From Halichondria panicea (taxonomy: Eukaryota > Porifera > Demospongiae > Suberitida > Halichondriidae): 64,000 nt of DNA. The stretch is from the NCBI RefSeq assembly GCF_963675165.1, contig NC_087391.1, forward strand, positions 2,127,001 to 2,191,000. Reading direction: 5' to 3'. A program made the position numbers and the translations under genes. A model generated the notes under the pieces. It was not told the DNA's origin. It did not search any database and saw nothing but the letters and a program-made list of their open reading frames with translations. Shown one piece after another: positions 15,835 through 64,000 of the stretch; position 1 is the stretch's first letter; each line of letters starts with the position of its first letter.

Positions 15835-15837
15835 TCT

Positions 15838-16036: not shown

Positions 16037-16179
16037 ATGAAATGTTGTCTTCACTTAGTGTCACGCATGCAGTGTTATAACGCTACGCATATCACCAAGT
16101 CTTAAAACGTATATATAACCATTCAAAATTGATATTGCAATGTAAGAAACAGTATAATGTTGAACAAAACAATTAAAAG

Positions 16180-26164: not shown

Positions 26165-32755
<6,591 letters not shown>

Positions 32756-38437: not shown

Positions 38438-38903
38438 ATGACCAGGTAAAGGTTGTTCTGAGGCTAGCTGAGGGTGTGGTGTGTACTATATAGAAAACTG
38501 TGCTGCATTCTAGACTAGACTGTAATGTATGTGACTGTATGCTTTATTACATACTAACAGCAAACCAAAGTCAGAACTTTCTGAAGAGGACCTGCGAAAA
38601 AAAGAGGATGAAGAATTTCAAACTGGACCTCTCTCAGTTCTCAGCCAGTCAGTGAAGCACAACACACAAGTTCTCATCAACTGTCGGAACAATCGAAAAC
38701 TGTTGGCCAGGGTGAAAGCTTTTGATCGGCATTTTAACATGGTGCTGGAGAATGTCAAGGAAATGTGGACAGAAACTCCCAAGTCTGGTAAAGGAAAGTC
38801 AAAATCAAAGCCTGTGAACAAGGACAGATATGTAGCCAAAATGTTTTTACGGGGAGACTCTGTAATCTTAGTGCTACGTAATCCTGCTCTTTCTGGAAAA
38901 TAG
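38438..38903 (+). CDS. SNRPD2: small nuclear ribonucleoprotein Sm D2
   Basis: Exon 1 (38438-38445) codes only MTS with a split codon; exon 2 is 38561-38903; 116 residues in all. [78 protein letters not shown] and [16 protein letters not shown] match SmD2 along its whole length, including both Sm motifs. It is a core member of the heptameric ring on spliceosomal snRNAs. The 8-base first exon is supported by phase and by SmD2 starting a few residues before NKPKSE. Confidence 0.96.
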
Positions 38904-39278: not shown

Positions 39279-39311
39279 AAGCTTTGAGCTGAGTTCGAGT
39301 AAGGAGTGTCA

Positions 39312-41084: not shown

Positions 41085-44000
41085 CTAGTTCTTCTCCATA
41101 TTGTCCACTAGCAGAGCTTTGTCGTCAGTCACAATGAAGCTTGGTGACGAGGTGTGGCTTATGCTAGAGTAGATGTGCTCTTGGGGAGGTGGGCGACGAG
41201 GGTTAGACATATAGGAGGGGTTATCAAAAGAAGAAGGGGGGTGGGACGACTCCATGGGATGCCCAGGGATCATATAGATGGGGTTTTCATGTTGCTCATT
41301 GACAGAGAATCGCACTGTGTATATAGAAAGTGCATGTGTGTGAATGGGGGGGGGATTAACTTAGGATTTAAATACCGTATAGCGGGTAATTTCGTTGGTA
41401 CAAGTTTTCGTATGAACTACCGAATTATTTCTTTACAGCTCAGGAACCTATTGCGGGTAGTCGTTTTAATTTTCGTATAATGCTCTACGATAACAAAAAT
41501 GTACACCATACGAAAACAACCAGCTATACGGTATACGATTTTTTCTTCCTAACACAATAAATCTCCACCATGGCAACCAAAGGTGGTGGTTATATTTTAA
41601 ACAAAATATTGGCATTACAACAAAGCCTATATATAGAGTCGTAAAACGGCTCTGCATTATCCATGCAACAACCATACTGCCTTGCACTAACCTGGCTCGT
41701 TATTAAAGAATTTTGTTGAGTGCTTTCTTCTCTTGACACAGCAGCAGATACACAGTCCCATGACCAGGAGGAGGATGAGCAAAAGGGCGACACCACCTGC
41801 CACTGGGGCAACTATCCCCACGAGGGTTGATGGGGGATCTGGGTATATATTAGGGGGGAGGGGTGCTTTGAAACTCATAATCATGCAGATATATCATAAA
41901 ATAACTTGTCATAACATTCGTCAACAGACAAATAGACAAATTAACTGCAGTCAACGAGACACACACTATTAGCTATTCATGCACACTAGGTTGGTGCTGT
42001 AGGAACGGTATTATATGTAATTTCTTACTAGTGAGAGACTGATTTAAAGGGCTAGTGACCACTCCTACAGGGCCTATTTCACAGTTCTTGCCGTTGAAAC
42101 CAGTTGGGCAGTCACAGCTGTAGTCCATACCCTCCCCAGAGTCCTGTAACAAGTGTAAAGAGATAAGTATAGAACTCTACCATGGAAAGAAATCATCAAC
42201 TGGTTAACTGGTACTAGAAACGAGTTCTTAAGTAAAAAGTTACTACGTTTGTCTTCTCACTGTGCATGGTACTCCATTGGTGCAGGGGTTGGGCTGACAG
42301 GCATCGATGTTCACGCCACAGTTGGTATCTGTCCATCCGCTGGCACACACACAAGTGTACTCACCCAGTCCATCCTGCAGAGGCCAAAGTTAAAACACAG
42401 TCTATACACAAATTACAGACATTTTCGTGATATTTATTCATTCAAATTAAGAAACTTCAACCTTCGACTTATGAAATCAGACACTTGGCCGCTCAAAGAG
42501 CAAACCTCTGACAATTGACTCACTATGCAGGATGCCCCATTTAGACATGGGCTAGGGTCACACTCGTTGATGTCGAATGGGAAGTGGATCTGGCAGAATC
42601 TCCCAGAGTAGTCAGGGGCACACACACACCGGTAGTCAAGGTGCTCGTCCTGCATGTGTGTGTGTGTGGGGGGGGGGTATGAGCAATACACTTATTCATT
42701 GCAGCCTCCTTCCTATACACAGGCCTCGGAGAGAGGATTCAATTAGGAGCAAAGACAAGATCAATGCAGAGATGAAGGTTTTCTGACAACCTCCACATCG
42801 GCCCTCACACTCATACATAATGTGTACGCCCACTTACCATACAAGTTCCCTGATCGGTGCATTGGTTCCCCACACAGTCATCAATGTCAGTGTCACACAC
42901 AGTACCATCGTACCCATCCTCACAGTTGCACTGGAACCCACCAGTCTTGTCCTGCAAGATAGGAACGTACTTAGTGATGAGACTTTGAGGCTATTACATA
43001 TTGAACTACGTGCATTTGTACTGGCTAGCTTAAAGCACGCGTAACAATTAATGTGTGTACAATAACAGCAATTGTCCCTCACAACACAGCTTCCATGGAT
43101 ACAGGGGTTGGAGACACAATCATCTTCATCGGTTTCACAGTGAGTGCCGTAAAAACCAGGGAGACAGTCACACCTAAATGCATTCACCAGATCCTGAGGA
43201 GCACAGAACACATTTAATAAAACGGCCTATTCTATTCTATACTGCTTACACAGCACAAGACACTGCACATTAAACCTCACCATGAAACCACAAATTAAAT
43301 GGTGAAAGCTAAAACGATGCTCATTGGCAAACTATAACTTCAACATACAATTACAGTAAGAGGTGTTTACCTGACAGGTGGCTCCGTTCCTACAGGGATC
43401 GGGGGAGCACTCGTTGATATCCACGTCACAGGTGTCCCCTGTGTAGCCTGGGTCACATACACACAAGTACCCCACACTCTGGTCCTGTGTGTGCCAGTGC
43501 ATGTGATATTGACAATGGTAACTCTAACAAATCACAACGTGAATTACTATAACCCAGTGAGTAATACATGTTACCTTAGGGATAATTGGGAGGCTAAATA
43601 ATTAGTTTGCGAATTAAAAACAAATTCAACTGTTTCACCAACACAGCTTACTTTAGTGACAATGGTTTCCCTAAACAAATACATATTTTATTCTGATACG
43701 GTCTTTCTATATACTTTTTCCTGTGCTGTAGTGTATCATAGCTCACCACGCAGGTTCCTTGAGCGCACGGTGAGGAGAGACAAGCGTCCAATTCAACGCT
43801 ACAGTCCAGGCCAGTGAAGGAGGGGCCACACATGCAGTTGTAAGAGTTGAGGCCGTTGATACAAGTTCCTCCGTTCATGCACGGGCTAGAACGACACCTA
43901 TTCAGGTCGATCTCACAATCATTGCCCTGCATGGTGGCGTGGGGAATGGGAGTTAACATTACCTAGTACTAGAGACAGTTATTATCTCAATATTGGTACC

Positions 44001-47000
44001 CATACAGAATTAAAACAGATGTTGATTTGCTCACAAAATATGGTATATAAACCTTCAAATCCCCTTCCTCTGCCCCACCTCACCTGGAACTCTGAGGTGC
44101 AGATGCAAGAGTAGCTATCGACAAGGTCAGTGCAGGTGCCTCCGTTGATGCACGGGCCAGGCAGACACTCGTCCACCTCCGTCTCACAGTGTTGCCCATA
44201 GTAACCAGGAGTACAACTGCAATTGTATCCCCTGAACAGATCCTGCGTATATAAGACGGTGATATATTAAGACAGTGTTGATATAATTGATAGGGATGGT
44301 ATAAGATTATGAACACGTACACGTACATGTATGAGCTAGTTTTTTATGTGAGGTATTGGATTATTCAAAGCAACCTGTCAAAAGGGTAGCTGTAAGTAAA
44401 GAACTCACGAGGCAAGTGGCTCCATTGGTACACTGGTTGTTGACGCAGTCATCGACATCTCTGTCACAATTCCTCCCCTCCCAGCCGTCAGTGCACAGAC
44501 ACAGGTAGTCATTCACCAGGTCCTGTTAGACATAAATATCTATCACCAAGTATACTATAGTACAGATTGAAGCCTTTGCTTCATATTAAATAACTACTTA
44601 AGTAGTAGAACATTTTTAAGGGGGGAGATTGCTATTTCGAGCTAGCATGATCACAACTACAGTATAGGAGCTGCTGTAACCACCAATATTGAAATTGAAA
44701 GGGTGGTTATCTATATTAGATCTACACAATGTGTGGAGGAATACACAACAAAACAATAGCATTTTGATTCTTCTATCATAGAAAACCCTGAATTTCTGCT
44801 CCACAAGATTCTCTCGACTCACTCACTCACCACACAAGAGTCAGCGTTGACACAGGGTCCTGAAGCACACTCATTGATATTGGTCTCACAGCGAGTACCA
44901 GTGAACCCTGAAGCACAGTCACAGCTGAAGCTGTTCAAGCCATCCTGCAGGGAACAGAGGGTAGGGGTCAGTACGTAATATTAATTTACAAATAATTATA
45001 CATAATTATAGGCGACAAAGAGATCGATAGCACCATGTAAGAATTATGATTAATAGCTCTGTAGGGATATACAAGTACAAAACAACACTTGCAGCCTTTG
45101 CATGTACATGAATTATAAAGCAATATTGAGTTGCGTACTGTGCAAGTGCCAAGGTTTTCACAGGGATCGGGTTGACACTCATTGATGTCATGGTCACACA
45201 GGGGCCCCTCCCATCCAGGGACACAGCTGCACGAGAAACTGCTCACTCCATCCTAAGTATGACAGGAGATAACTACATGAGAATTCCATTGTACAATGAC
45301 TGTCATACATTTCAATAATAAATGCCAAATCACCAAAGTCAGTTAATATCGGGTTGTAGCCATGCATGCACTCTTTTTACCAGACACTCTGGCACACAGT
45401 CACCGGACAAACTTTGTAGTAATTTTGATGGACTTACATTACAGGTAGCCCCATTGCTGCATGGGTTAGGGTTGCAGTCATCAAAGTTGACACTACAGGT
45501 AGAACCTGTCCATCCAGGCGGGCAGACGCAATTGTAGTTGTTGACACCATCCTGTAGAGAGGAAGTAATTTTTAGCTTCCATTCTATAGAGTAATGCAAT
45601 TAGACAAGATGGGATTACCTCCCGTATGCACTAGGAGTCTTGGCAAACAGAATAGCTATGAATGCTGATGGAACTATATGTACATGATTGCAGTGAATGG
45701 GGGCATTTGACTTCGATTATTATGTTGTCCTATAAATCATGCAAGAGGCATATGTCTAATTAACCACACATGTACGCACATTAAGTTAAGTGCATCTATA
45801 GCTATTTGTGCTGTGTATTCCCACTCACAACACATGTTCCGCCGTTGTCACATGACACGTCCAGACAATCGTCAATGTCCACAGTACAGTTGATCCCAGT
45901 GTAGCCAGGCTCACAAGAGCAGCTGTAGCCACCAACAGAGTTCTATACAGGGGAAACAAAAGGAATGAATTGTATCTACTGTACCATACACGTACAATTG
46001 CAATACCTATATGGTATTTTGACAGTAAATAGATTTAGTAGCCGTCCCTTTCAGAACATTATTTAATTTGTAGACTATTAAATTATTATACCTTTCACAT
46101 GTGTGAAGCTTCATCATTATACGATTTTTTCTGTTTTCTGTAATAGTTTTGTGTATTTTCAACCCCTATGTAATGAACAGCTGCATGTAGTCCTACAACT
46201 ATTTACAGTTTTAGATACTGAAAGTATACACACATCCAACTTCACCTGAAAAAATAATTTATTCAGTGCCTATAATAGATCCATATACATGTAGGTTTAT
46301 GAAATTCTATGCAGCAGCAAAGATGGCTGCTCTTGTAGATAGCTCAAATGAGATCAATAGGCGAAAGTGTTGCTCTATTTCGTACAAGATCAGATGTTTC
46401 TACTCAAAGGGAGCATTCCTCGTTCTCTTTTGGATGTCTCTGATCATCCTAACTTTTGTCTCTGTGTTTTTTATAACACTCACAGTAGGTTTTCGAGGAA
46501 TAGACTATATTATGACATCTTTTGAGATAGCTTTACTTCCAGCTGTGCCAATCCTCTTAGTTATTTTTGCTCCCATTGTTGGTTGGATTGCGGACGCTCG
46601 CTGTGGTAACTACAGAGTGTTTAGAGTTGGAGCATGTTTGTTTTTTCTATCTGCTGTATTCGGTTGCATCTGTGTATTAATTTTATTGAATGTGCCAAAA
46701 CGCAGTACTATCTCTCTTGTAGTCAGTGGCGTAATAAATCCAGTTGTTTTTGTCATTGGGTTTGTAGGAGGAACAGCTTGTTTAGTGACTGCTCTGCAGC
46801 TTGGATTGGATCAAATGCCTGATGCTTCTTCCGCTAACATCACAAGTTTCATTGCCTGGTTTGTGTTCTCATTGGTCCTCGGGGCATGGATATTAGACAC
46901 GGGTTTCAGGTGTTTTCATTGTTTTGTACCTCTACATAATCTATCTTCAACTTTGTGGACACCACCAGTGTTCAGTCTATCCCCAGTAATTTTCATGTCT

Positions 47001-50000
47001 GTACTTTGTTGTTCATTGTTTCTCCTTGCTCCAAAATGGCTGACTATTGAGCCCAACTGTCCTCAGTCCCTGAAAACCATCTATCAAGTTCTCAAGTTTG
47101 CTAAGCAACACAAGGCTCCCCTCAATCGCAGTGCTCTTACATACTGGGAGGAAGACATTCCTTCAAGAATGGACTTGGGCAAGTCAAGGTATGGTGGACC
47201 ATTTACTACAGAGCAAGTTGAAGACGTCAAGACATTCTTCAAGATTCTTATAATCTCTTTACCCATTTTCATAATTTCATGTTCACTTTCTCCAGAAGTT
47301 TACATGCAAAGGTTGGATGGATTTATTACCGTTTGTGAGGCTGATCTTATGTACTCTATTACCTACAGTCCAACATGGGTCATCATCATTGTGACGTTAA
47401 TGTATGAATTTTGTATCTATCCTTTGATTCGAAACCGGTTACCTAGTATACTGAAGCGTATTGGGATTATTTCGTTTCTTGTGTTCATTCTAAATTCCGT
47501 TAAGTTGGTATTGGCTACTGCTATTTTCTCGTATTCTCTGCATCTTTCACCATGGTCAAAAATAACATATTCTGTTCTCTTTTCATCAATATTTGTGTTC
47601 TTATTGACTGGAGTTCTAGAATTTATGTGTGCTCAATCTCCCTACAAGATGCGTGGCCTACTACTTGGCTATACAATGCTGCTTTAACCTCATCTCAATA
47701 TATGTTAGTGGAATGGTGAATTATTTTTTTGGCTTCTGTGTCGGACCATACTGCCGCATTATTGAGAAGTCACTCTTTACTGCTCTGAGTCTGGTTGGGT
47801 TTGTACTCCACTGCCTCCTGGCTACCTGGTACAAGAGGAGAGTTAGAGAAGAGGACTATGATGTACACAGAGTCGTGGAGGAGGTCTACGATAGATACCT
47901 CTCACAGAGACCAACTGTGAACTACATGTAGTACATGGAATCATTACAATGCATTACACGTTGTATTATAATAGCTATTTTCTGAAATAGTTCTGTGTCT
48001 TTTCAAGCCTCTTTTAAGATGGTTACTGGTTAGTCAAATGAATGTGTGTACTTTGTGAACAGCAGCTGCATTTAGTTATTACACTCAAATTTTACATACT
48101 GAATATAATGTACAATTATATGCTTTAAATGTTATAATATAAATACATTATAATGCATTACAATAATGCCTCCTATGAGAGATTTAGTCCCCATTGGTAA
48201 AGCCTAGTAACAAGCGTGCAATCCCTACCGTGTTTTTTTCACCTTTACGTACCTTCAATCTCATGCTATACATGTATATACTAATAAGTGCATGTAGAAA
48301 TCATGCATGTAAAGTTGATCTGAGTTGAGTTGAGCCCCGGAAGTTCTGTGGTCAATTTATGGCTTCATTAATTTTATGCCATTAATTTTATGCCATCTAT
48401 GGAATATTCTACTTTTGACTGGTTGACTTATCAACTCTAAAACACATCGTATAGAGGGTAATTTTCGTGGGACAATATTCGTGGTTTTCCTGGTTGAAGG
48501 TCTGACCACGAATATTTTACCCACGAATGAAGCGACCTTGCCTACCTTTACCAGCAGTGCAAGCTAAGCAACCACGAAAATATTACCCACGAAATGCCTC
48601 AATATTGCTGAACCACGAATATTTTGTCTCCCGAAAAATACGGTAGATAGAAACGCGAAATATCCAATGGTGTATGAAATTTTGAAATTAAGTAACAAAG
48701 TTATAACAACTTTATGGAGGCTCAACTCAACTCAAAATACATGCACACAGTATAGAAAGAATGCATAGGCCACATACCGTGCATGTGCCGTGAGCACAAG
48801 GTGTAAAGTTGCATTCATTGATGTCAGCATCACAGTTGGTTCCGGTGTAGCCAGAAGAGCACTCACAATAGTAGGAGGCCACCATGTCCTGTATAGGAAG
48901 GACAGCTGTGATAACACTGCTACAGGGAGTAACATCTGCTCATGTTAGAGGCTAAACCGATCGTGTCAAACAAAAGACGAAAATAGGGGATTCCATATTA
49001 AATAAAAAACATTAATTGTGACCATCTGCGTGGTCAAGGCAATGTTTTATCTTAGGAGGGAAATTCTTTAGTAAAGATAAACTAAACCATGAACTCAAAC
49101 AAGCACCTTCATACATCGCCACAACTACAGTTTTTAGTTTTTACATGACAGACTCCGTTCACACAAGGAGAGGAGGCACATTCATTGTGGTCAAAGTCAC
49201 ACTGGTCGCCAAAATAACCCGGAGCACAGTTGCAATGGTAGCCGCCAATCAAATCCTACAGAATTTGTTTATTAAATTCTGTACACACACACAAAGCTAT
49301 TCAGAAAATGTGTACCTGACATGTTCCTCCATTGTGACAAAGTTGAGGGTTGCAGTCATCTATGTTTTCAGAGCAGGTGGTCCCAGTCCAACCATTAGTG
49401 CACTGACACGTGAACTCTCCAATCCCATCCTAATATGTGGGTCGTATGCATAATTTAGTGAATTGCAATTCACAACTCATATTGTGGCTGTACCACTGAT
49501 AAACAACTATTGTTCAAAACTACATGTATGCACTTTATTTTAAATGCTCCACTGTACACAAACAATAGTAACTCTATAGTGCATGTACACAACTCACAGT
49601 GCAACGTCCCTCATTACCGCAGGGGTTGGGCAGACAGTCGTTGATGTTCATATCACAGTGACGACCAGTGTAGCCATGAGAACAATCACACGAGAAATCA
49701 CCAACAAGGTCCTGAAATAATAATAATAATTCAATAACAACTACATGTATAGAGGAGGAAATGGTATTGACTTTCAATAATATAACCCTACATGTGTAAG
49801 GTTATTACCAAGAGTCCGTAAGAGAGTATCGAACTCTGCATAACCATGCTTAATATGTATTCGGAAAGTAACGTGACTGCCTGTCTGAAACGCGTGATTG
49901 ATTAATGACAATTTGGCAATAATATTATTGCAGTAGCTCAAGGCACTCGGATTGGTCAGTTACCAAGCAGGAAGTCTCGTTACTTTCCGAATACATCTGG

Positions 50001-52360
50001 CAAGTTAATGCTTCGTTCAATATATACTCTCTCTCTTTTATTATAGACTCTTGTGCAATGCTATTACTGTTGATCTAAGCAGTCGTTTTTCAGCTTAAAA
50101 ACATGATGTGTTGAACAATTTTTGTACTCACTGTGCAGGTGCCAAAGAAGCACGGTGAAGAGGAGCACTCGTTCCTCTCACTCTCACAATTGTCCCCTTC
50201 GTATGCCAGGGGGCAAGCACACGTGTACCCTCCCTGATTATCGTTGTAGCAGGTGCCTCCATTCTGACAGGGGGATAGGCTCTCACAGCGGAAGATGTCA
50301 ACCTCACAGTTTGCCCCGGCAAAACCATGGTGACAGATGCATTCGTCAGGTTCAGTACAATAGCCGCCGGTTGCGGCTAAAACAGTAACAACAATAGATA
50401 AATTAAAATGTTAGAGGCTGTTTTGATTGTGACTGTGACTAAACAAGTTCTTACAATAACACACACTGGGATAACAAGACAATACCTGTTAAAGTGGCCA
50501 GTAATTGCGACTAACAAAGAATTACAAACTAATGCATGCCTGTAAGTTGATTCAGACAAAAAAAGCATTAAAAGGTATACAGACTAACAAATAGCCTGCT
50601 ACAGCACTCACAGCATCCTGCACGAGGTACGCATATGTTGCAGTTGTCTCCCTGCCAACTACTGCGACAGTCACACCCTCCCGGCACTGTGCAAGTCCCT
50701 CCCACAGAGCTACAGCTGCTTGAGCACATTGCTGCACAGTGGACATAAAAGCAGCCAATTTTACAATTTATCGTAATTATAAGCTGACACAGTTACAATG
50801 GGGAATCTGCGTGTTGGCAATTTAATAATTACTAGAAAACAGCCAAATTTCTGATTGAAGCTAATCAAATGAAAATTTATCTATCTATCTATCTATCTAA
50901 TCATCAAGTGCTGAACAATGACTGTGCACATTCGTGATAAATCAACAAGAGCAATTGAAGTGTAATCATTGTTCCATACAATGAATATGGCGCCCTAAAT
51001 AACCACATTGAGATAAACAAACAATGAGAACACAATGTCACATATGCAACCTCCTCGTGAAGCCCGGCACTTACGAGTAAGACAGTCCACTCCGGTCCAC
51101 CCTCCCAGACAGACCTTGGAGCCAGTGTTAGAATTACATGTGTAGTGCCCCAGGGCATCATCCCTGGGAATGCAGTATGTAGCACAGTCTGAATCATAGT
51201 AGTTTGCAGTACACATGACACGGAAACTGAGTGATATCCGAGAGTTTCCAAAATCTCCATAGAAATTTGTCTGCGTCGTAAACTGTGTATTAGGTGATAT
51301 AGAGATCTCGACGTAGATGTCATCCACATGATCATCAGAGTTGAGTGTGTCAATATCGACGACCTCAACAAACAGTTGTACGGCTCCCTATGGAGACAAA
51401 AAAACATGTGTCTGGTGTTGACATGCATATCTTAATAATTGGTACATGTAAACAAACTTTTACCATAATTATTGTAAAGAGCCTCACTCAAGTGACAGGT
51501 GTTTACATGAGGTCAAATGTGGAATTGATAGTACAACCAATAATTATTTAGCAACGGGGGGGGGGGGGGGGGGGGTCTATTATGGTTCCCTGCATGTAGA
51601 TGGTAACTGAACTTAGTACTGTAAATAACAACAAATAGTTAGCACAATTGTATCTCTATCTTCCCTTGGAAGTGAGGATTGTGACATAAAGACGTACCGA
51701 TTTAACAAAGCATGTATTTGGTTAGTAAGTGGATCAATTTTTTTTAATTGGTAGTTTTATGGGTCTAACTTTTCCTGTTGGTAGCCATAAATACAATACC
51801 TATATTATATACCTATATTTATTATAATTGTACAAGATAGACTCACCGGCCACACACTTCCTTGGAAGAGCATCGGATTAGACACCCCACTGTAAATACT
51901 GTTGGATCCAAAGTTGAAGGAGTCATCTCCCACTTCTCCAGTACTGTAGGTACCAAGAGGACAGCTACCAGTGTTGCTGTCATGAGCAGTGCCGGAATTT
52001 CTCAGACAGAAGACAAACTCATTGTCACACTGGCAGTAAAAGCACCACCATGGGTCACAGTTGCTCCTTCCACCCTTGTCACAACAGCCACCAGCTGCAT
52101 CTCTATGTGGACTGTTGGAATAACTGTGAGCCCTGATCTCCAACTGGTAGTTGCCCAAACTCTGCACAGAGAAAAAAGCAATAAACTTAATATCTGATAG
52201 TCCTCATCAATTGTTGTAACTCTAGTTGGTTGAGCCAACTAGATCTAGCTAGACCTATTTGTTGTAGCTCTAGCTAGCTAGATCTAGCTACAATAATTGT
52301 ACTTACCAGGTGACTCAACCAGAAAAGACCTAGCAATTGAATTGCTAGCTTTGCATTCAT
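41085..52360 (-). CDS. Delta-like Notch ligand 1 (MNNL, DSL, about 18 EGF, TM)
   Basis: About 22 exons. Exon 1 (52307-52360) is a signal peptide, [18 protein letters not shown]. Next come the N-terminal MNNL-like region (51845-52161 and the start of 51073-51387), then a DSL domain: [44 protein letters not shown] Cys-rich exon (50610-50735) and an exon with about two EGFs (50130-50380) follow. Then there is a run of exons of about 115-125 bases, most encoding the end of one EGF and the start of the next (examples at 49316-49430, 48775-48890, 45438-45553, 43075-43197, 42256-42378). Many have calcium-binding DxDEC/NxNEC starts. The TM exon is about 41690-41865 ([20 protein letters not shown]). 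The tail exon ends at 41085 and holds [18 protein letters not shown] and EHIYSSIS. The repeated layout DxxxxYxCxCxxGxxGxxC supports tandem exon growth. A peptide-transporter gene is nested at 46299-47930. Confidence 0.9.
41373..41534. mobile_element. MITE of the ACCGTATAGC family in a DSL-gene intron
   Basis: Ends TACCGTATAGCGGGTAATTT and ATACCGTATAGCTGG (minus strand) are inverted. The interior has TTTTCGTATGAAC and its reverse. Non-coding. Confidence 0.8.
46299..47930 (+). pseudogene. peptide-transporter (PTR/SLC15-type MFS) gene, intronless, frame-shifted, nested
   Basis: A long hydrophobic frame runs from the ATG at 46299 ([14 protein letters not shown]) to 47687. Features of proton-coupled oligopeptide transporters include [20 protein letters not shown] in helix 2-3, [19 protein letters not shown], and near the end [17 protein letters not shown], the family's conserved CxQSPxxMRGLLxG. 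The continuation ([18 protein letters not shown] and [20 protein letters not shown]) is in the next frame, so a single indel near 47680 separates the last two helices. Either this is a decaying gene or a sequencing error. The whole gene lies in one intron of the DSL gene on the opposite strand and has no introns. It is somewhat short at the N-terminus. Sponge and cnidarian genomes carry many divergent members; the substrate cannot be told. Confidence 0.7.
48448..48652. mobile_element. MITE of the ACCGTATAGC family
   Basis: Left end CGTATAGAGGGTAATTTTCG and right end (minus strand) TACCGTATTTTTCGGGAGAC. The interior is mostly CCACGAATATTTTACCCACG-type sub-repeats in both directions. In a DSL-gene intron. 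Confidence 0.8.
49856..49995. mobile_element. 140-bp MITE in a DSL-gene intron
   Basis: The ends TGTATTCGGAAAGTAACGTG and (minus strand) TGTATTCGGAAAGTAACGAG are near-perfect inverted repeats of about 28 bases. No target duplication is obvious. Confidence 0.85.
51556..51577. repeat. 22-base G run
   Basis: Uninterrupted G tract in the intron between the MNNL exons of the first DSL gene. Its length is easily misread, and it could form quadruplex DNA. Confidence 0.85.
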
Positions 52361-53521
52361 TGTAGATCTAGCTGTGCGTGTGTATTGCTACTGCACAAAA
52401 CGCAGAGGACTGGCTTTATGTACTAGTAGATCTACACTCAGTCAGTAGCGATGTGCAGAGCCAGGGGGTGGGGCTGACTTGCAGAAAAAACCACGAGATA
52501 ATTATCTATGACGTAGATCTAGTTGACAAACTTCCAGTTACCATTACATGTATTACTTACCTATACCAGAGATACAAAAGAAAGGGGATTGGAAACGACC
52601 GCCCACGCCCTATGTAAAAGGACTGACATCCGGTGAAGCACTCCGTGTAATTATTGCGCTCGCAAATAATTACATGGAAAAGTTTTATATCCCTGGTTTC
52701 TAGCTCTCCTATCCACTAGAGATCACTCAGGGCCTGGGAGATACTTGAGAGAAGTAAGCTTATACCACTGACAAGCTCTAAGTCCGTTGTCTTTACTCTG
52801 TTTCCAATTTTTTTGAGTTTAGCTTGAATTACTCTATGTCAACTTTTCTCTGTCCCTCCTGTGAAGTCAAAACAGCAAAGGACATTGCTTGACTTGGTTA
52901 TTATGTATCTAAGTGCTACATAGAATGGCTTCATGCTATAGATAAGCTGTACTGTTCATAAACGTTTGCAGTATAGTCCTTCAAACTGCTTTAGTATACT
53001 TTTAGACACGCCACGGGCCTGTCCCTCCTACGACTTCATAGTAAAGGCTATTTCTTCTTGCATAGCATTTATTTGTCTAGTAATAGTGGCTGTATGGCTT
53101 AGTCGACTTTTTAGAGCTAAATTCTCTTTACTTTTTAGAAAAATCAACATTAAAAATGATCAATTTCACTGTTTCTATGTACAGCACATTGTAGAGCAGT
53201 CAAGACTGGTAATGAGCATGCTGACTATAAATATAATCCTTTGTAGTTTTAGCCACGCCCTATAACGCGGAATGCTTCACGCAAAAATTTCGTAAAAATT
53301 TCGTTTCCAATCCCCTTTCTTTTGTATCTCTGCCTATACCATAGATAGTAACTTTACTATCTATGCCTATACTGACAGTACCATAATTATTACACCATGT
53401 GATTACACGTACTTCGTGACACGTAGCGAGGTATGTAGATGCACATGTAGTACACACTTTCATTAATTAATGTTTCTGTAATAAAGCCGTATACAAAATA
53501 ACAATGAAGGTATGATTATAA
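52361..53521. repeat. region between DSL genes 1 and 2, with large inverted repeat
   Basis: A segment at about 52561-52600 (ATACAAAAGAAAGGGGATTG) recurs inverted at 53300-53340 (CAATCCCCTTTCTTTTGTAT). Weaker pairs just inside (GTGAAGCACTCCG / CGGAATGCTTCAC) suggest a foldback element of about 780 bases. A 12-base-arm hairpin (CATAGATAGTAA, loop CT) follows at about 53341-53366. A 99-codon open frame inside (52966-53265) has no family signal. Confidence 0.65.
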
Positions 53522-56500
53522 TTAGTTAATAGTATCGTACAAAGCCTCTGTTTCTGGTTGCAAAGCATTAGCGTACAAAGCCTCCAAATCCTTCTTTTCC
53601 GTGTTCGCATAAACCCCACATTCGGCAGAATCATAATCATGACAGTCGGACTCGGTGAGACTAACCTCCCTAACTCGAGTCATCTCTCCCTCCTGCCTCA
53701 CCACCAAATGGTCGTAGTTGACCGTCTCACTAGCAGAATCAGGACTAGTACTGTTGCTCTCGTATATATGAGGTAATTCAGAGCCTTCCATTGTGGCTAG
53801 TACAATCTCAGCGTCATCTTGCTCAGATTGATTCAGCGTGGAATAATGAAGATTGTCTACATCGTCAACACTCGACGCAAAGTGTCCTGTTCCCGTGATC
53901 TGCTCGTACTTGTGATCTTGGTAGCTGGCTGTGGTGGACTGTGTGCGCATAGATTCATCTAGAGTGGAGTAGTCACCCATGGAATTGAAGAGGTCCACGA
54001 CAGAGCTACTTTTGGGTGATAGGACACTGTGTTGAATATTGCTAGATGATCCGTTGCGAGGATTGAGGTGACAATAATGGCTGACTGTGGGTATGCGACG
54101 GCCGGCTTCGTCATATATTGGGTTATCAAATCGACTATGGGGACTATGGGGGCAGGAGTTCATGTCCGCGAAGGTTGGGTTGTCCACACTGAAGATTTGC
54201 TGTGACGACGAGACAGTCTTGTCAGATTCTTCTGTACGTCACGGAGAAAGAGAGAGAGAGAGAGAGAGAGAGTACTTTAATACGTATCTAGAGTTTTATA
54301 ACACTAACAATTACAAGTTGGTGAAGGAGCTCATTTAACTTGTTACTAAGATTTTCATTACCCATCAACTTCATAGACAAAACAGTTAGTATGCAAACAT
54401 GAATGTACTCCTGTTAAAGTAACACAAGCAAAACCAACCGTTACTGAATGAGTTGATGACGAGTTTCCTTCGATTTCGTTGTTTGACTATGCAGAGCAGT
54501 GTGATGAGGAGACAGATTATCACTAAGAGCAACATCCCACTGGCTATGGAGCCACCGATGATGGGTCCCATCAGACTACTCAGACTGAACCCACCACTTC
54601 CATCTGTGCATACATGTAGATAGTGAAACTTGTGAACACGAAAGAGGCTTTAAATGTGGTTATCTACTGATAGGTGGGAATATAAAGCTATGATACATTG
54701 TACGAGTGCTTTAAGAACATTGCTGAGAGATGATTGGTTGCATCAATGGTCACATATGTATGCTTTGCTGTAGCATGGAAATTGCTTATTAGTAAATGGA
54801 TAAACTCTTGATAGCTGAATAACTTTCAGGATCTAATTTCATTTCCATTATGGTTACACAAAAGTGCATAATTATTAACTCACCTACTACTTCACAGTTT
54901 CTTCCGGAGAATCCATTGATGCACAGACATATGAAGTCTCCAAGATTGTTCTATACAAGCATCAATGTTTAGATTAGTATCTTCATCTTCGTACAATAAG
55001 GATTCGATATGCATCATGTGATACTCACCTGACAGGTGCCATTGTTGAGACACGTCTGTCTGATACATCCGTCTAACTCAGACTCACAGAATCGCCCTTC
55101 AAATCCTCGAGAACACTCGCACTCGAAGTCCAAATGCAGATCCTGCAAAATAAGCGTAAACGAAACTTTAGAGTAAATATTAATAGCTAAAAGGACTGAC
55201 TTAGTTACAAAGACACAATAAGGACACATCCCATACCAACTGTAACTAGGCACAATGCAGCCTTACAAATGACGTTGTTTGGATTATTTGACCCCTACAG
55301 TCAATTAGTGAAAGTCACAGCAAAGCACACACCTTACAAATGGCTCCATTCTTGCACACATTTTGCACACATTCATCTGTTTCCATAGTGCAGGTCTTTC
55401 CGTCAAATCCCTCCCTACAGATGCAGGTGAAGTTGTCAGGTCCGCTATTCTCACAGTCACCGTTGTTTAGACATGGGGAGGTGTGCCCACAAACATCTAG
55501 GTCTGTGTTGGGTACGTACAATTAACACACGTCGTGAGTTAAGAAATATCTTACGATCAGGACATCACAAACTTTTCCCCTATTATTTCTGATAAGGGTG
55601 TTAGCTCTAGTATAGACAAAACCAAACTATAAGTTGTGCGTGGTTGTTGGTAGTTGGGCACACTTACCTATTTCGCAAGAAGCCCCACTGAAATTGTTAG
55701 AACAATTACACTCAAATTTGTTTTCCAGGGTAAGATCAAACACGCAAGAGCCTCCGTTTGCACAACTTGCCCGACCAGTACGGCACATATTCAAATCTGT
55801 ATGAAATTAAACAGTACAGTCTTTGAAGAAGGGTAAGTTGGGTGAGAGCAGTTGAAGCACATCCAATGCACATAATTATACGAGGAATGATTTACAAAAA
55901 TGGTTGTTGTTTATCTCATACCAATGCACATAATTACGAGAATGATTACAAGAATGGTTTGTTTACAGTTTTGTATATTACATAACAATGCACATCATTA
56001 TATGAGAATGATTACAAGGATGGTTTGTTTACAGTGTTGTATATCACATACCAGTGTCACAGGTGAGCCCAGCATAGTCCTCAGGGCAAATACAGTAGAA
56101 GAAATTCTCTGCAGTTTGGTTGAACACACAAGTGCCTCCATTTGCACAACTTGCCTGACCAGTACGGCACATATTCAAGTCTGTATGAGATTAAACAGTA
56201 GTCTTAAAGAAGGGGTAAAGTTAGGTGAGAGCAGTTGAAGCACATACCAAGTACACATAATTATACGAGAATGATATATTATACACACATAATTATCACA
56301 CATACCGGTTTCACAGGTGAGCCCGGCATAGCCTTCAGGACAGATACAGGAGAATAAATTCTCTGCAGTTTGGTTGAACACACAAGTGCCTCTGTTTGCA
56401 CAACTTGCCTGACCAGTACGGCATATATTCAAGTCTGTATGAGATTAGACAGTAGTCTTAAAGAAGGGGTAAAGTTAGGTAAGAGCAGTTGAAGCACATA

Positions 56501-58478
56501 CCAAGTACACATAATTATACGAGAATGATATATTTATACACACATAATTATCACACATACCGGTTTCACAGGTGAGCCCGGCATAGCCTTCAGGACAGAT
56601 ACAAGAGAATAAATTCTCTGCAGTTTGGTTAAACACACAAGAGCCTCCGTTTGCACAACTTGCCTGACCAGTACGGCACATATTCAAGTCTGTATGAGAT
56701 TAAACAGGTAAAGTTAGATGGGAGCATATACCAAATACACATAATTGTACGAGAATGATCCCATTATCACATACCAGTGTCACAGGTGAGCCCGGCATAG
56801 TCCTCAGGACAGATACAGGAGAAGCGATTCTCTGCAGTTTGGTTGAACACACAAGTGCCTCCATTTGCACAACTTGCCTGACCAGTACGGCACACCCTCA
56901 AGTCTGTACAACATTAAGTAGTTAATGATTCATTGATTGTAGGTACAGAGTGTCAACACACAGTAAATTCCTATTGTATCACTGTGTAGAGATTTGGTGT
57001 CACAATAATTGCTATACTTCACTGTTCGTATGCACCCTAACAACAGCATGTGAATATGATCCCTGATTGAAGCCACATACTAGACACATGCAGGATACTC
57101 TATGGCTCACCTATATCGCAGAACTCTCCAGAGAACTCCTCCATGCAGACACAGCCATCAGTGGAGTTACAATAGCCACCAGTGGAGGCTGCCAATACAT
57201 GTAAAGCCAGTCACTTATAGAACCATTTAGAATAATTACTGTCTAATGCACACAGTTACGTATAAGTCTTGTGCCATTATCAAGGAAGTAGTTCAAAAGC
57301 AAGAGATGTATATATTTAGCTCAGGAACCGTATACGTGGCTATTGTATGGAGCACATAACTGTAGAGCTAACACCCCATTCGTTCACCCACACATCTATC
57401 AGATATTGTAAGTGCTGAAATTCAATGGCTACACTGATTGATCTGTGTGTAGTCAAGGAGACATAATTATAGAGCAGGTAAGTGTTGCCTAGGAAACTTT
57501 TGATGTGATGAATATCAACTTAACAATAATGTACCACTAGAACATACACAAAACCCATAGGGACGCTACCCAGTATAAACACTTACAGCATCCGTCTGAC
57601 AGGAGGCATTGAGTGCAGTTGGTTGAAGTGTTGTTAAATCCTTCTAGACACAAAATATTGCCACTGCTATCACAAGTAAAGTGCCCCAAATCATTGTCTC
57701 TTGGGATGCAAAATACTCCACAATCAGATCCATAGAATCCTTCACCGCATTCCAGTTCAAAACTAATCTGGAGAAACGCCCGTCCATTAGTGTGGGTAAC
57801 ACTTTCTATTCTACTAATTGGTATCGTTTGAGGATTGTGGGATATGTTTACAGGTACAAAGAGTTCCAATACGAGGGGGTCTGCTTCATCAGATGTCAGC
57901 TCATCATCAACTCGTAACAATAGTTCAACAGCACCCTGAATGTAAATAAGAACACACACACATGAAAGTTATCAGGTTCCAGTAATTGAGTTAAACGGTC
58001 ACCTCCCAACTCACAAATAAGTGAACAAAGAAGTAATTGTTACTCACCGACCAACTGCTGTTAACTTTGAAAATCACTGGATTTGCAACCACTGATTCCT
58101 GAGAGAATGATATGACGTCACTGTTGATAAAGCTAGATTGATACTCTCCAAGTGAGCAGGTGCCATCAGGCTCTGTAGGCAAGCGTAGACAGAAAGTGAA
58201 CTGATTGATGCAGCTAGACATGCATGTAATGTTTCTGTCACAGCAAAATCCATTCGCTTTACTGTGTGCAGAATTGGAGTACTGATGGAGATTGACTCTC
58301 AGTGTGTATGAAGCTTGTGTGTGTTCCTGCATATAGAAAAGACAAAATGATCATAAAAATTATATTGAGTGATGAATAAGCCACTTTTAGCTATTGAAAA
58401 TATTAGCCAACTTGCCACTGTGGTCAGCATGAGTAGGAAGCAGGCCAACAAAAGGCTACATCTGAGCACAGGCCTCAT
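53522..58478 (-). CDS. Delta-like Notch ligand 2 (MNNL, DSL, about 9 EGF, TM, YxxL tail)
   Basis: Exon 1 starts at 58478 with signal peptide MRPVLRCSLLLACFLLMLTT; its donor may be GCAAGT (GC-AG) or GTGGCA. The MNNL-like region (58048-58330) has LRVNLHQYSNSAHSKANGFC and SCINQFTFCLR. The next exon (57585-57955) gives ELLLRVDDEL and the DSL domain CGEGFYGSDCGVFCIPRDND, LGHFTCDSSGNILCLEG. EGF exons follow, including four near copies (56052-56182, 56305-56435, 56560-56692, 56772-56905) of CRTGQASCANGG..CVFNQTAENxFxCICPExYAGLTC, a related fifth (55670-55797), then 55330-55502, 55025-55143 and 54890-54960. The TM exon (54386-54600) is IIGGSIASGMLLLVIICLLI. The tail (about 54233 to 53522, 235 residues) carries NPIYDEAG, DYSTL, KYEQI, HYSTL, NYDHL, VYANT and LYDTI. 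Same strand and architecture as the neighbouring gene, so a tandem duplicate. Confidence 0.88.
56052..56905 (-). repeat. tandem duplication of one EGF exon, four copies
   Basis: Four exon-plus-intron units of about 210-260 bases repeat head to tail. The introns also match (CATACCAAGTACACATAATT; ATACGAGAATGAT). Copies at 56305 and 56560 are the most alike. A more diverged fifth unit lies at 55670. This points to recent unequal crossing-over inside the gene. Confidence 0.92.
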
Positions 58479-59110
58479 TGTAGTGGGCTCTATAGAATGA
58501 ATGGAGAGCCAAACAGTGGTTGAAACGTGCAATACGCTTGCTGCATGCGTATATTGTAGTCTATAACTAGTATATAGACAATGTATAATAACCTTACCGA
58601 AAATCACTAGATGAACTGATAGAGACACAGCTAGAGTCGTGCTTTTCCTGCCTTTCTCTCAGTGTTGATAACTGAATTATCCTCTACAATTATAAAGTGT
58701 TATGCACATTTAATACATCTAGAGTTGTCTAAAACCTTAACCATTGGAGCACACAAAAGAACAGACTTAGGTGGGCTAGGCTAAATCTTATACATACTAT
58801 ACTTATACATACTATACTTATTCTACTTACAAGATGTACTATTTAACAGCTTACCTGTACATGTATTACACTGAAGCAGACAGTATAGTTATCCAACGGA
58901 ACACAAACTAGAGCACAACTAAACACTTTTATCAGAGCTACACCGCGCATGCGCATTAATGTAGGGCTTCACAACAATATTTTATTTAGTGCAGTACTGT
59001 AACCACAATGTAAATGGAAAATTCCTGAAACTACTGTACTGTATTGTGTAATTGTGTAGTTAACTGACATCTACTGATGGACAAAAAAGTAAAACACACA
59101 CCATTTCACC
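58479..59110. promoter_or_regulatory. upstream region of Delta-like gene 2 with NRF1-like palindrome
   Basis: It contains CGCGCATGCGCAT (about 58944-58956), the same core found in other promoter gaps. A short TATACTTATACATACTATAC repeat is near 58790-58820. No gene. Confidence 0.45.
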
Positions 59111-59317
59111 TTAGTTGGTGTTAGTTCTAGCCATAAACTGTTGCAACAAATTCTCTTTCTCCTTTCGTATGAGAGTAAGTTCAGTCAGCTCTTGTTCTAG
59201 CTTGTTGCACTGTTTTTTCTTCCTCGTGTACAACTGGTTCTCTCTGAGGTAGAGTCCCAAGCCCCCACCAATGAACACTCCTCCACTGATTGCCATCACT
59301 TTACCAAACATTCCCAT
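59111..59317 (-). CDS. small single-pass membrane protein, 68 residues
   Basis: A single exon opens MGMFGKVMAISGGVFIGGGL, a glycine-rich hydrophobic segment that could be a membrane anchor, then YLRENQLYTRKKKQC and a charged, probably coiled-coil helix (KLEQELTELTLIRKEKENLL). This layout is seen in tiny mitochondrial proteins such as STMP1, but I do not recognise a specific family. The clean amphipathic design argues that it is real. It lies between two DSL genes on the same strand. Confidence 0.5.
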   Translation of the reverse strand: MGMFGKVMAISGGVFIGGGLGLYLRENQLYTRKKKQCNKLEQELTELTLIRKEKENLLQQFMARTNTN

Positions 59318-60477
59318 GGTAACTTGCTATGGAGAGGCGGAGAAGCTCCTTACACAAACCAGAGGGTATAGCTAAGGGCAGTGATCTTAATAAATCAAAC
59401 AGCTTTAGCGCTAAATCTAAGCATCTGTCATAACATATTCTGTCCCCCCAGACCAGGATAGCCACACATATAGTATTAGTCCGAAGGGATAGAACAGATA
59501 CCACCCGTAATATTTGGTCCTCCAGTCTATTGACAGTAGATTATGTGTTTAACGTTTATTAGGGACTTTTGCAGGTCAGTTTTAGACAGCTATCTGTCAA
59601 GATGATATCCTGAAAAGAACAGAGCGGCTATGACATGCACCCAGTGACTGTGTACAGTATTATAGCGGGTGACGCATACTTGACTAATGGAAGGATAATT
59701 AATTTAGGAAAGACTACCTTCGAGCTGCCACAATTATCCACTTCAATTACTCTGGCCATTTCGGCATTAAAAAAGACATGGCACAGACTAGCAGAGTGAT
59801 TACATTGGAGTCTGGAAAGATGGCATATAGAATTCCTAAACAATATATAATTGTAGAAAGATGCTAGTCCACCATTCCCCGACCTCATTCCCATGTCAAG
59901 GAGGCTAACCATTCCCATGCAGTAAGACACAGAGAACAGAGAGCGTGAACATGTAGCCGCTGACCAGTCCTTGTTGGAGATTTTCGAGAGGGAGGAGTGC
60001 ACCCAATGCTTGCGGTGCCGGTGGTATCACAACTGTTTAACTGCTTATTAATTAACTGAATAGGACCAAATATTTCGGGGCATGCACCTCGAGCTCACTC
60101 TACTCCGACAGAGATTACAAAACATTTAAGATCTACCAGATAGCGTACTCAGAACATAGAGTGAGTCTACTAGGTAGACTAAAGGCATGCTTAATAGATC
60201 TATCCTCTCCAATCAACCTTGCAAATTAATACTCACATGTGCAGTGTGTAGTGGTGTACCCAGAGAGCTCAGTTGCAGTATCTATCGTGATAGTACAGGG
60301 CTAGACACATGGACAAATGGCTAGGCTAGGCTAGAGAGTTGACATGGCTAGTCAATCTACGCTCGGTAAAGATCATCACAGTTAGAACAAAATAAATTAT
60401 TTTAAAAAAGCTAAAAAGCATTAATTAAATCAACACTTAATACCACACTAAAAAAAACTGAGCAAATTATATAAGGC
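59318..60477. other. region between small gene and DSL gene 3, nothing assigned
   Basis: A 124-codon minus-strand frame (59628-60002) and a short plus-strand stretch near 59950-60045 (EREECTQCLRCRWYHNCL) hint at a degraded zinc-finger-like or transposon-derived sequence, but neither has a start, splice support or family match. The rest is AT-rich. Confidence 0.35.
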
Positions 60478-63400
60478 TCATTGCCCTACGTCATAATGAG
60501 ACAGTGCTTTGGGGGTAATTTTTCCGGGAAGTGTGTTTGTGTACACAGGTTTATCTTGGGGAGGTATTGAAGTTGAAGTCATACTATCCAAAGGATTTTC
60601 TATGTAGTCATAGGGATGCGGTTTCGCTGAGGATGTTGGAGGCAGTACTGCATAAGGTTGAGGCGTTTGCTCTTTCGGTAAAAACACAGTGTCATCGTAG
60701 AGTGTTTCATTTGGAGGCAATACCGTCTGTATGTGTGGAGGAGGGTGGTCAACGTTAGACTCGTCCAGCTGGTCGTAAATGACGTCTTGCTGGAGGATGG
60801 GTTGGGTAGGGAAAGCCGTATCGTACGTACTTCCTCCAGGCATTTGTCCGTCTCTGATCTTTTCATATGCCACCCTAGACTTGGAGGGATGTCTCGCTTT
60901 CATCTCGAGCGACGGGTCTGTGTTTGGGAGGAAAGCTTCATCGTAGACTGGCTGATCATCTGGATCGGTGACTACAGCCGAGTTAAATGTTGGGATTGGG
61001 GGTACGGGTTGCAGTGTTATACTGGTCTCTGTGAGCTTACGGACACGGGAGTGGCTTTCCTTCCTTTCCTTTTGTGGAGTAACCTCTTTTGAGAATGGCG
61101 ATTGCCGCTCAAGTGTGTCATACATGTACACTGGGGTGATTTCATGATTGCTGTCAGGGAAATTGGCCGAGTCATACGGGATTGGGGGTACGGGTTGCAG
61201 TGTTATACTGGTCTCTGTGAGCTTACGGACACGGGAGTGGCTTTCCTTCCTTTCCTTTTGTGGAGTAACCTCTTTTGAGAATGGCGATTGCCGCTCAAGT
61301 GTGTCATACATGTACACTGGGGTGATTTCATGATTGCTGTCAGGGAAATTGGCCGAGTCATACGTGGGGCCGTCAAGAGTGGATGCAAACTCATTAGTGC
61401 CCATCCTAACCGTATGTAAGGATGGGCTAACACTTGGATGACGTAGCTGCGAGTATGTATCTTGTTTTTGCATCTTGGAGGACTCATACATATCATTACT
61501 GAACATGTGATCGCTTGACGTCCCAGTTCCCGGTTTTGAGTCCAATCCAGGGCCGTATATCGGATTCTGAAATTTGTGCTCAGCTGATGATCCCGTTCCT
61601 GTTCCTGTTCTAACTTCATCCAGGTTGTAGGCATTACTATGACCTGCTACACCTGTGCAAAAGAGAAAATGAGAAAATGGTAACAATTTTTGCAAAATAC
61701 TCCTTCTGATCTCTGCAAACTTCCACAGTACATTCACTGCTTTAGGAAGTAGGAATTGTCCTATACAGGTTTATGTACACAAGCAGAGCAGGTGCCCTAA
61801 ATGGAGGCGTTGCTAGGAATGATGTGGAAGATTGGTTTACTATGTCCTGTAAGCAATTAGGTCACAGACAATACACTGTATTGTCACATAGCAACAACTC
61901 GACAATACACACAGTATTTGGTAAGTAATGTATGTGATAAAATCTAGAGTTCTTTAACTACACTGGCGGCTTCCATAGTTCACCATTACAAAGCCATTCT
62001 TACAACGGATACCTACAAGTGCAGCAGTGACACTGACATTGTTGACAGTAGTATTAGTGACTACAGTAAACTGAAACCACTAGCTGTCACTTTACTATCA
62101 GCTAGTGATGTTTTGTACCTAATCATTGTAGGAACATAACCTACACATTAGTAAGCGTTCATGTCTCATGACATTCAGCTTGCTTACCTGAGATGTTGAC
62201 TTTCATGTGACTTCTGATTTGAACTTGACACATGAGTACACACACAATGATCACCAAGACGATGATCACCAGGAAGAGAGCTCCGCCCACTCCACCAGCT
62301 ATACCAGCCACCAACGCCAGACTCACGGCACTTTCTACAGGGGGAGAAAGAGGATGTACAGTCATGTAGCTTTGATTGTTCAAAGGGAACATCAAAGCAT
62401 TTAGTTGATGGGAATTTAATTACCTCATAATTATATCCCTCCATAATTTATGGGAAGATTATAACAATTAATAGCTGGGTAACCATGGGGAACAGTGAGA
62501 CATCTGTAACTACATGTAGTTTCCAATAAGGTCAATGCCTCTAATATAATTAGTGGCTACAGTGCACACTAATAATTATGTGAGCCATTACATTGTACTA
62601 TACACTCACCAGGTTCACAGTTACTTCCAGTGAATCCAGACAGACAGGTGGTACATCTTGTGGATATGTTTCGTTCAGAAAGACACACTGTACAGTCACG
62701 GCTACTATCATACCCAGGCAGACAAGTGGAGCAGCTGGAGCCGAGATCGCGATTGCCTATGCACTCAGAGCAATTTGTGGTAGGGTCAAAGTTAGTGGCC
62801 AAGCATGTTTGACAGAGTGTTGCTGGGTCCCCTCCTGGTAGAGCACACACACTGCAGTCTGTATCAGTGAACCTGTCTGGTTGTAGGCAGAGGGAGCAGT
62901 CGGTAGAGGGGTCTCTGTTGGGTAGGCAACTAGTACAGTCCGAGGTGATGTCCCAGCCTGGTAGACACTGGGCGCAGTTGGTAGAGGGATCTCTGTTGGG
63001 TAGGCAACTAGCACAATCCGAGGTGATGTCCCAGCCTGGTAGACACTGGGCGCAGTTGGTAGAGGGATCTCTGTTCGGTAGACACTGGGTGCAGTTGGTA
63101 GAGGGATCTCTGTTGGGTAGGCACTGGGTGCAGTTTGTCTGAAGGTCATAGAGTTCCAACAAACATGATGTACAACCATCAGAAGGATTGAAGTTTGTGT
63201 CCAAGCATGATTCACAGTTAGTGGTTGGGTCATAGCTAGTCTGTACACAAATGGAGCAGCCTGTAGTATTATCCAGGTTGTAGAGGCAGTCGTTGCAGGC
63301 TACGAAAGGTGAAGGGTCAAATCGGTTATCAGTACATGTTAGAGTGCCATCAGCTTGACATGTCACCACTCGTGGATTGTTCTGAGGTGTTGTGGTACAG

Positions 63401-64000
63401 TCAGATCCACAGAAACCAGGAGAGCACTCGACTCTGAAACTCATCGTCATGTGAGATATGTCGTGGTATCCAGTGAATGTCATCTCCTCTGTGAAGTCTG
63501 CTCCAAGTTGGAGGTTGTCCAGGTTAATCAACAGACTGTCTATTATGTTCGGGAGTCGACTATCCACAGCTTCTATAAAGAACTGTATTTGCCCCTGTAT
63601 TAAAACTTCATCAAAATGGTAGGTGAAATGAATCTAAACTTACCATCCACATAGTAAAATCTGGTTTCGAAATACGTAAAGGATTGTCTGTTACTCCCAG
63701 TAGTGCTGTTGGACCTTGACTGAATGTTGTGCTCATTTCACTGAATGGGCAAGTGGAGGACATTGCACAGTCCGTGAAAAAATATGGAGGGTTATCAGCA
63801 TTGAGTTCACTGAGTGGTCTTGTCTCCAGTGATGCACCAAATGGTCTGATGGTCCAACGGAACCTCGTGTCACATCTCCCCTCTCCTGTGTTGTCACAGT
63901 TGGTGTTTGTGAATGGCTGATCATCACAGCACACTGGTACTAACAGGTCAGCACTTTCGAAATTACTCAGTGGAGCCACACATTCAGCACACAGTCCGGT
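60478..64000 (-). CDS. DSL-type transmembrane protein 3 with CxxC repeat array, 5' end outside window
   Basis: Exons seen: MNNL-like region (about 63645-64000; LVPVCCDDQPFTNTNCDNTG, RCDTRFRWTIRPFGAS); a large exon (62609-63597) with a degenerate DSL domain (MSFRVECSPGFCGSDCTTTP, NNPRVVTCQADGTLTC) and then about 17 units of 14-15 residues, consensus CxxCLPNRDPSTN; a TM exon (about 62175-62340; LALVAGIAGGVGGALFLVII); and a 390-residue tail exon (60478 to about 61655). The tail has many tyrosine motifs: QNPIYGPG, VYMYDTL, PVYDEAF, AYEKIRDG, TYDTAF, IYDQL, LYDDTVF, PYDYIENP and VYTNTL. No EGF repeats are present. Its N-terminal homology and position make it a diverged member of the neighbouring Delta-like family; whether it can bind Notch is doubtful given the poor DSL domain. 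Confidence 0.78.
60992..61363 (-). repeat. identical 186-bp tandem duplication in the DSL-3 tail exon
   Basis: 60992-61177 and 61178-61363 appear identical and in frame, adding 62 residues. Each unit carries YDSANFPDSNHEITPVYMYD, PFSKEVTPQ and ETSITLQPVPPIP. Very recent, or an assembly artefact. Confidence 0.93.
62630..63310 (-). repeat. 42-48 bp coding repeat encoding CxxC units
   Basis: The array encodes 17 CxxC motifs at a spacing of 14-15 residues. The middle part (62900-63130) is nearly homogeneous, alternating CLPNRDPSTNC and CLPGWDITSDC, which points to recent expansion and unequal exchange. The outer units are more diverged. Confidence 0.9.

Follow-up and report, generated by a model that had tools for sequence, protein, structure and literature searches.

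We analysed a 64,000-nucleotide stretch of the genome of the sponge Halichondria panicea (contig NC_087391.1, positions 2,127,001 to 2,191,000; hereafter the window, whose own numbering is used throughout). Its region 41085-64000 contains three Delta-like genes, A, B and C, all on the minus strand. The splice models were assembled manually on the minus-strand sequence and then checked by script. They contain no internal stops; 38 of the 39 introns are GT-AG, and the remaining one, intron 1 of gene B, is GC-AG. Signal peptides and transmembrane segments were assigned by eye. All three genes share an intron in the MNNL domain at W./G (after a tryptophan and one residue, before a glycine; phase 0), a transmembrane exon of phase 1/1 and the starting point of the tail exon. 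We find one Notch-ligand scaffold in tandem paralogues, whose ectodomain repeats differ in kind and number. No further relative of the three genes was detected at 1-41 kb of the window (no match below E 0.25), and none was confirmed in prokaryotic and viral contig collections, which are uninformative on animals.

Gene A (41085..52360) has 24 exons and encodes 1158 residues, comprising an apparent signal peptide, MNNL, DSL, 21 EGF-type repeats, a transmembrane segment and a 92-residue tail. Exons 2-3 (51075..52161) encode the C2-like MNNL and the DSL, as supported by the gene model, Pfam and matches in the PDB. Exons 4-5 (50132..50731) encode an atypical EGF1 and EGF2 resembling those of Jagged-1 and DLL1, followed by EGF3 and the beginning of the EGF after it. 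The N-terminal piece scores 56.9 bits for MNNL and 53.0 bits for DSL in Pfam (cut-offs 22.5 and 24.2 bits), and the whole protein scores 53.9 bits for DSL. MNNL scores are given from N-terminal pieces here, and whole-protein scans of A and B returned no MNNL. Among solved structures, MNNL, DSL and the atypical EGF1-2 match Jagged-1, DLL1 and DLL4, the lowest E value being 8e-35. The cysteine pattern gives 21 EGF repeats, and Pfam marks 19 stretches in the whole protein. A preliminary description of this DNA had put the number of EGFs at about 18, which is too few. The transmembrane exon (41692..41838) has phase 1/1, and the tail exon (41085..41314) contains HENPIY and FDNPSY. With MNNL, DSL, EGF repeats, a transmembrane segment and a tail, gene A has the composition of a Delta-type Notch ligand.

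Gene B (53522..58478) encodes 879 residues in 14 exons: an apparent signal peptide, MNNL, DSL, nine EGF-type repeats (eight Pfam stretches), a transmembrane segment and a 251-residue tyrosine-rich tail. Its first donor is modelled as GC, and a GT donor 3 nt upstream would fit too. The N-terminal piece scores 50.4 bits for MNNL and 43.5 bits for DSL, the whole protein 38.1 bits for DSL, and the best match among PDB structures is DLL1 (E 4e-21). Gene B has the same set of domains as gene A, that of a Delta-type Notch ligand. At 55668..56903 lies a burst of five 129-nt EGF exons, four of them nearly alike (pairwise differences of 5-14 in 126 nt), with their introns duplicated along with them. Tandem Repeats Finder reports a 254-bp period here, which corresponds to exon plus intron, in 2.6 copies with 94% matches. 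Both the count of about nine EGFs and the recent exon burst proposed earlier are confirmed. The tail exon (53522..54231) contains FDNPIY, together with seven sites of the form Y[DES]x[ILVAM].

Gene C (60478..64000) continues beyond the window edge at its 5' end, and neither a signal peptide nor the 5' part of MNNL is visible. The four visible exons encode 887 residues, with a divergent MNNL, a degenerate DSL, 17 C-x8-10-C units, a transmembrane segment and a 405-residue tyrosine-rich tail. Exon 2 alone (62610..63594) encodes the end of MNNL, the degenerate DSL and the entire CxxC array. In this array the 17 units, separated from each other by two residues, lie between the DSL-like stretch and the transmembrane segment, which is encoded by a phase 1/1 exon (62188..62334). 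The tail exon (60478..61652) contains FQNPIY, YAVL-x10-YDYI and a tandem duplication of 186 bp (60992-61364), which is exact and in frame and which may be an assembly fault. As had been proposed, gene C has a CxxC array in place of EGF repeats: it gives no EGF match and no Pfam family above the cut-off. Pfam likewise finds no MNNL in the visible part. Its DSL matches (two pieces, 12.0 and 8.1 bits) stay below the threshold, cover only model positions 33-45, and fall on the first cysteines of the DSL-like stretch, out of register.

A profile comparison supports the relationship of gene C to its neighbours. Against an MNNL-DSL profile made from A, B, Jagged-1, DLL1 and DLL4, gene C scores 29.2 bits, while the best of 1000 shuffles with fixed cysteines reaches 8.3 and the reversed sequence -3.8. 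With a profile restricted to A and B, the score is 23.2 bits, with shuffles at 8.3 or below and the reversed sequence at 2.2. Because of this profile score and the introns in common with A and B, we assign gene C to the Notch-ligand family, and we take it to be a divergent paralogue of A and B. The proposed common order of MNNL, DSL, repeats, transmembrane segment and tail is therefore confirmed by Pfam for A and B; for C its MNNL-DSL part is seen by profile and introns, and not at the Pfam cut-off. In the alignment, the DSL of gene C has lost the third cysteine, has gained one near the second, and lacks an alignable Notch-contact loop. Against the PDB, the ectodomain of gene C has five matches, all unrelated, the best at E 0.12.

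We also compared the CxxC array with DSL ends. The DSL end of gene B scores 41 against the array, a score reached in 50 of 2000 cysteine-fixed shuffles. For the other DSL ends, the respective scores are reached in 401 (A), 303 (Jagged-1), 1117 (DLL1), 466 (DLL4) and 946 (C itself) of 2000. An origin of the array from the C5-C6 loop of DSL/EGF1 is not established by these comparisons, and we keep it as a conjecture.

Several other features lie between or within the Delta-like genes. The largest intron of gene A contains, on the opposite strand, a transporter-like open reading frame (ORF) at 46215-47931 (+), whose apparent C-terminal part is in another frame. The first frame has no Pfam match, and the ORF presumably resembles POT-type transporters. 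The large intron of gene A also carries, at 48448-48636, a copy of a probable dispersed repeat, with relatives at 6979-7180 and 13830-13994 (140-190 bp, 73-76% identity, differing orientations). Between genes A and B, the segment 52567-53332 has perfect 32-bp terminal inverted repeats, 702 nt apart, with CCTATAC on both flanks, and has the appearance of a short DNA transposon whose target-site duplication is 7 bp long. A small ORF separates genes B and C (59111-59326, minus strand; 68 residues from Met); its N-terminus is hydrophobic, the remainder charged and helix-like, and it has only a weak Pfam match (E 0.061).

The three genes are separated by considerable divergence. Their N-terminal domains share 21-38% protein identity, and no DNA match longer than 60 bp connects them at E 1e-10. 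On account of this low identity and the lack of a long DNA match, we regard A, B and C as old paralogues, contrary to the recent local gene expansion suggested before. In a tree without gene C, the split of A and B from five bilaterian ligands has an ultrafast bootstrap of 100%; the tree is unrooted and leaves the split between A and B undated. When gene C is included, it forms a very long branch between A+B and the bilaterian group, with support of 92 for the bilaterian group and 78 for the next split; this tree was not used for placing C.

The recent change in this cluster is turnover of the repeats of B and C rather than gene duplication. In gene B it is the exon burst, and in gene C the 78-bp units of the array and the 186-bp duplication of the tail. 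Of the fast evolution that had been proposed, turnover of repeats is supported and diversifying recognition is not. In the burst, a selection test on repeats of the kind called for in the preliminary description gives dN lower than dS in 10 of 10 pairs of exons by Nei-Gojobori counts; the exons are short, and the pairs are interdependent, having copies in common. With these counts, from short exons and overlapping pairs, we rejected diversifying selection on the burst exons. For the array of gene C, seven pairs of 13-residue units that differ by no more than 12 nt were compared: 10 of their codon differences are synonymous and 12 non-synonymous, numbers too small for a judgement.

Elsewhere in the window, a direct segmental duplication joins 1004-6822 and 12813-16507, in pieces of 77-97% identity. 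The ORF of the second copy shifts frame where an exact tandem repeat of 59 bp lies (15376-15493). For Ephydatia muelleri, too, tandem as well as widespread segmental duplication has been reported (PMC7385117; here and below, published work is cited from excerpts of the papers). Since another segment of the window is duplicated and the same is found in Ephydatia muelleri, local duplication is not peculiar to the Delta-like genes.

Next to the domain composition, we examined the Notch-contact face. In Jagged1, the Notch-binding face consists of F199, R201, R203, D205 and F207 (PMC3415683). Genes A and B each keep two of these five residues, the DLL1 chain five and the DLL4 chain three, and the Amphimedon Deltas are likewise described without the bilaterian DSL contact residues (PMC3482393). 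In whole-protein Pfam scans at E 1, none of the three genes shows a match to VWC, the domain characteristic of Jagged/Serrate. This is a weak test, because scans of this type missed the MNNL of A and B too.

The cytoplasmic tails share one motif and differ in another. FxNPxY is present in all three tails, at a distance from the tail start (as cut) of 45 residues in A, 49 in B and 41 in C. The two NPxY motifs of the A tail are reached by one of 2000 shuffles. The tails of B and C contain 12 tyrosines in 251 residues and 20 in 405, respectively, and many of them belong to sites of the class Y[DES]x[ILVAM]. There are seven such sites in B against 0.85 expected and 10 in C against 1.00 expected, numbers that none of 2000 shuffles reached in either case. 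After removal of one copy of the 186-bp duplication, C still has eight against 0.85 expected (0 of 5000 shuffles). Patterns resembling immunoreceptor tyrosine-based activation motifs (ITAM) or inhibition motifs (ITIM) are weak at best: the single ITAM-like pattern of C is reached in 128 of 2000 shuffles, its ITIM-like sites in 357 of 2000, and the three ITIM-like sites of B in 44 of 2000.

On the basis of these features, we consider it probable that the locus is a tandem cluster of three old DSL paralogues, in which A is conservative, C probably no longer binds Notch in the canonical way, and B and C have tails of a phosphotyrosine type. Gene A, with its C2-type MNNL, DSL, atypical EGF1-2 and long EGF stalk, would be the conservative Delta. 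A, and probably B, may bind Notch of a neighbouring cell through MNNL-DSL, at a reach that stalk length would determine. The FxNPxY motif, 41-49 residues into each tail, is predicted to recruit PTB-type clathrin adaptors, and the endocytosis that follows in the sending cell could pull on Notch. Fly Delta carrying the endocytic motif of the low-density lipoprotein (LDL) receptor in its tail, Dl-LDL, induces the wing boundary without Epsin (PMC10741450; cf. PMC3063240). In gene C, the alignable contact loop and the third cysteine of DSL are gone and small C-x8-10-C units stand in place of the EGF stalk; the protein is most likely not a canonical Notch agonist, but rather an antagonist, an adhesion molecule or a receptor. 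Once phosphorylated, the tyrosine-rich B and C tails would probably dock SH2 or PTB proteins and pass a signal into the ligand-bearing cell.

A number of observations weigh against this interpretation. The class Y[DES]x[ILVAM] was picked after the tails had been inspected, and the A tail has no such excess (one against 0.14 expected, 265 of 2000 shuffles). For the plain pattern Y..[ILVMF], C shows no excess (180 of 2000; 537 of 5000 after removal of one duplication copy) and B only a modest one (32 of 2000). A single NPxY in the B or C tail is not rare, being reached in 61 and 188 of 2000 shuffles. All tails contain lysines (five in A, seven in B and 21 in C), and Mindbomb has been named as redundant with Neuralized (PMC2770060); for these two reasons endocytosis driven by ubiquitin is equally possible. 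In another fly assay Dl-LDL gave just 2% weakly positive lineages (PMC10741450), so an LDL-type endocytic signal is not always sufficient. The three of five face residues kept by the DLL4 chain imply that true ligands need not hold the entire Jagged1 face. As for gene C, its first exon is incomplete, it joins neither A nor B in the tree that includes it, and structure prediction of its exon 2 along with exon 3 of A and B gave a mean predicted local distance difference test score (pLDDT) of 39.2, a result we left unused.

The cluster can be read in other ways. All three genes may be ordinary Notch ligands of different cell types, whose repeat differences reflect neutral drift of stalk length. 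EGF numbers in Deltas range from 0 to 75 (PMC2770060), the Amphimedon Deltas vary in expression and in their DSL contact residues depart from bilaterians (PMC3482393), and the burst shows dN below dS, all of which agree with such an explanation. However, it does not account for the loss of the DSL core loop and, in the alignment, of the third cysteine in C, nor would drift lead one to expect so many Y[DES]x[ILVAM] sites in the B and C tails, and we regard it as rather doubtful. Another reading equates gene C with the EGF-less AmqDelta4 of Amphimedon (GenBank GU385843), in which case C would be nothing new; this is compatible with either a recognition family or ordinary ligands. AmqDelta4 has a DSL and a transmembrane segment without EGF repeats, and software finds an MNLL in it (PMC3482393). 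No such domain is found in the visible part of C, a DSL is stated for all five Amphimedon Deltas while Pfam misses that of C, and the comparison is with the published description of AmqDelta4, which in the excerpts gives no account of the part from DSL to transmembrane segment. We hold this equivalence to be a real possibility, if somewhat short of an even one.

The preliminary description favoured a fast-evolving family for cell or self recognition, built on a Notch-ligand scaffold. Repeats that vary in kind and number, their recent turnover in B and C, and the exactly duplicated 186 bp of the C tail are what one might expect of such a family. Against it stand the excess of dS over dN in every burst pair, the old age of the gene duplications and the presence of just three such genes in the window. 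Self recognition finds no support in the published sponge Deltas either, whose expression is embryonic and specific to cell types (PMC3482393), and we judge the recognition family to be very improbable. A bolder version of our own interpretation takes gene C for a Notch ligand turned receptor. Its contact loop would have gone, and its stalk of small hairpins may go back to the C5-C6 loop of DSL/EGF1. Its 405-residue tail, which has FQNPIY, 8-10 Y[DES]x[ILVAM] sites and, as an ITAM-like pattern, YAVL-x10-YDYI, would signal by phosphotyrosine. Gene B, which combines a readable DSL with such a tail, would then be a two-way intermediate. We consider this version unlikely.

Besides the Delta-like cluster, the window contains a minisatellite at 32978-33395 (38-bp unit, 11 copies, 98% matches). 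Pfam identifies four genes on the plus strand: an Arf GTPase (27687-28316), a member of the UAA transporter family (35354-36244), an LSM domain gene (38535-38903) and an FGE-sulfatase (SUMF1-like) gene (39303-40397).

If the cluster of old paralogues that we favour is correct, it unites in one place a conservative Delta, another Delta whose tail is of the phosphotyrosine type, and a Delta derivative without EGF repeats or Notch face. How Notch ligands acquired signalling of their own would thereby become a testable question, and FxNPxY in all tails suggests an adaptor-driven route for ligand endocytosis.

The closest known system is that of Amphimedon queenslandica, which has one Notch and five Deltas, AmqDelta1-5 (PMC3482393). 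As in Halichondria, there are multiple Delta-type genes, one of them EGF-less (PMC3482393, PMC2770060), and the tails are divergent, with predicted SH2 and PTB sites (PMC3482393). The five differ from each other in their embryonic expression. In contrast, the Amphimedon Deltas have 3 to 10 EGFs, apart from AmqDelta4 with none, while there are 21 in A and nine in B, and a CxxC array as in C is not mentioned in the excerpts of PMC3482393 and PMC2770060. The word 'tandem' and words derived from it are absent from the main text of PMC3482393, and in the open-access literature no paper among the matches listed describes a tandem or duplicated cluster of sponge Deltas. We did not meet a CxxC array, a sub-threshold DSL or a 21-EGF stalk in the excerpted sponge Delta literature, in which no search was aimed at CxxC arrays in DSL proteins.

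Compared with Delta-like 1, Delta-like 4 and Jagged-1 (PDB 4xbm, 4xlw, 4cbz), A and B share MNNL and DSL, and A also the atypical EGF1-2. As differences, A and B are identical to the Jagged1 face at two of five residues, B and C have tyrosine-rich tails, and no VWC is matched by Pfam. DSL proteins without EGFs are also described in bivalves (PMC8166818) and cnidarians (PMC2770060). These have a single or a repeated DSL, whereas gene C combines one degenerate DSL with a different short unit. Given the Amphimedon Deltas and the wide range of EGF numbers, a group of Deltas whose stalks diverge, including an EGF-less member, is of a known kind.

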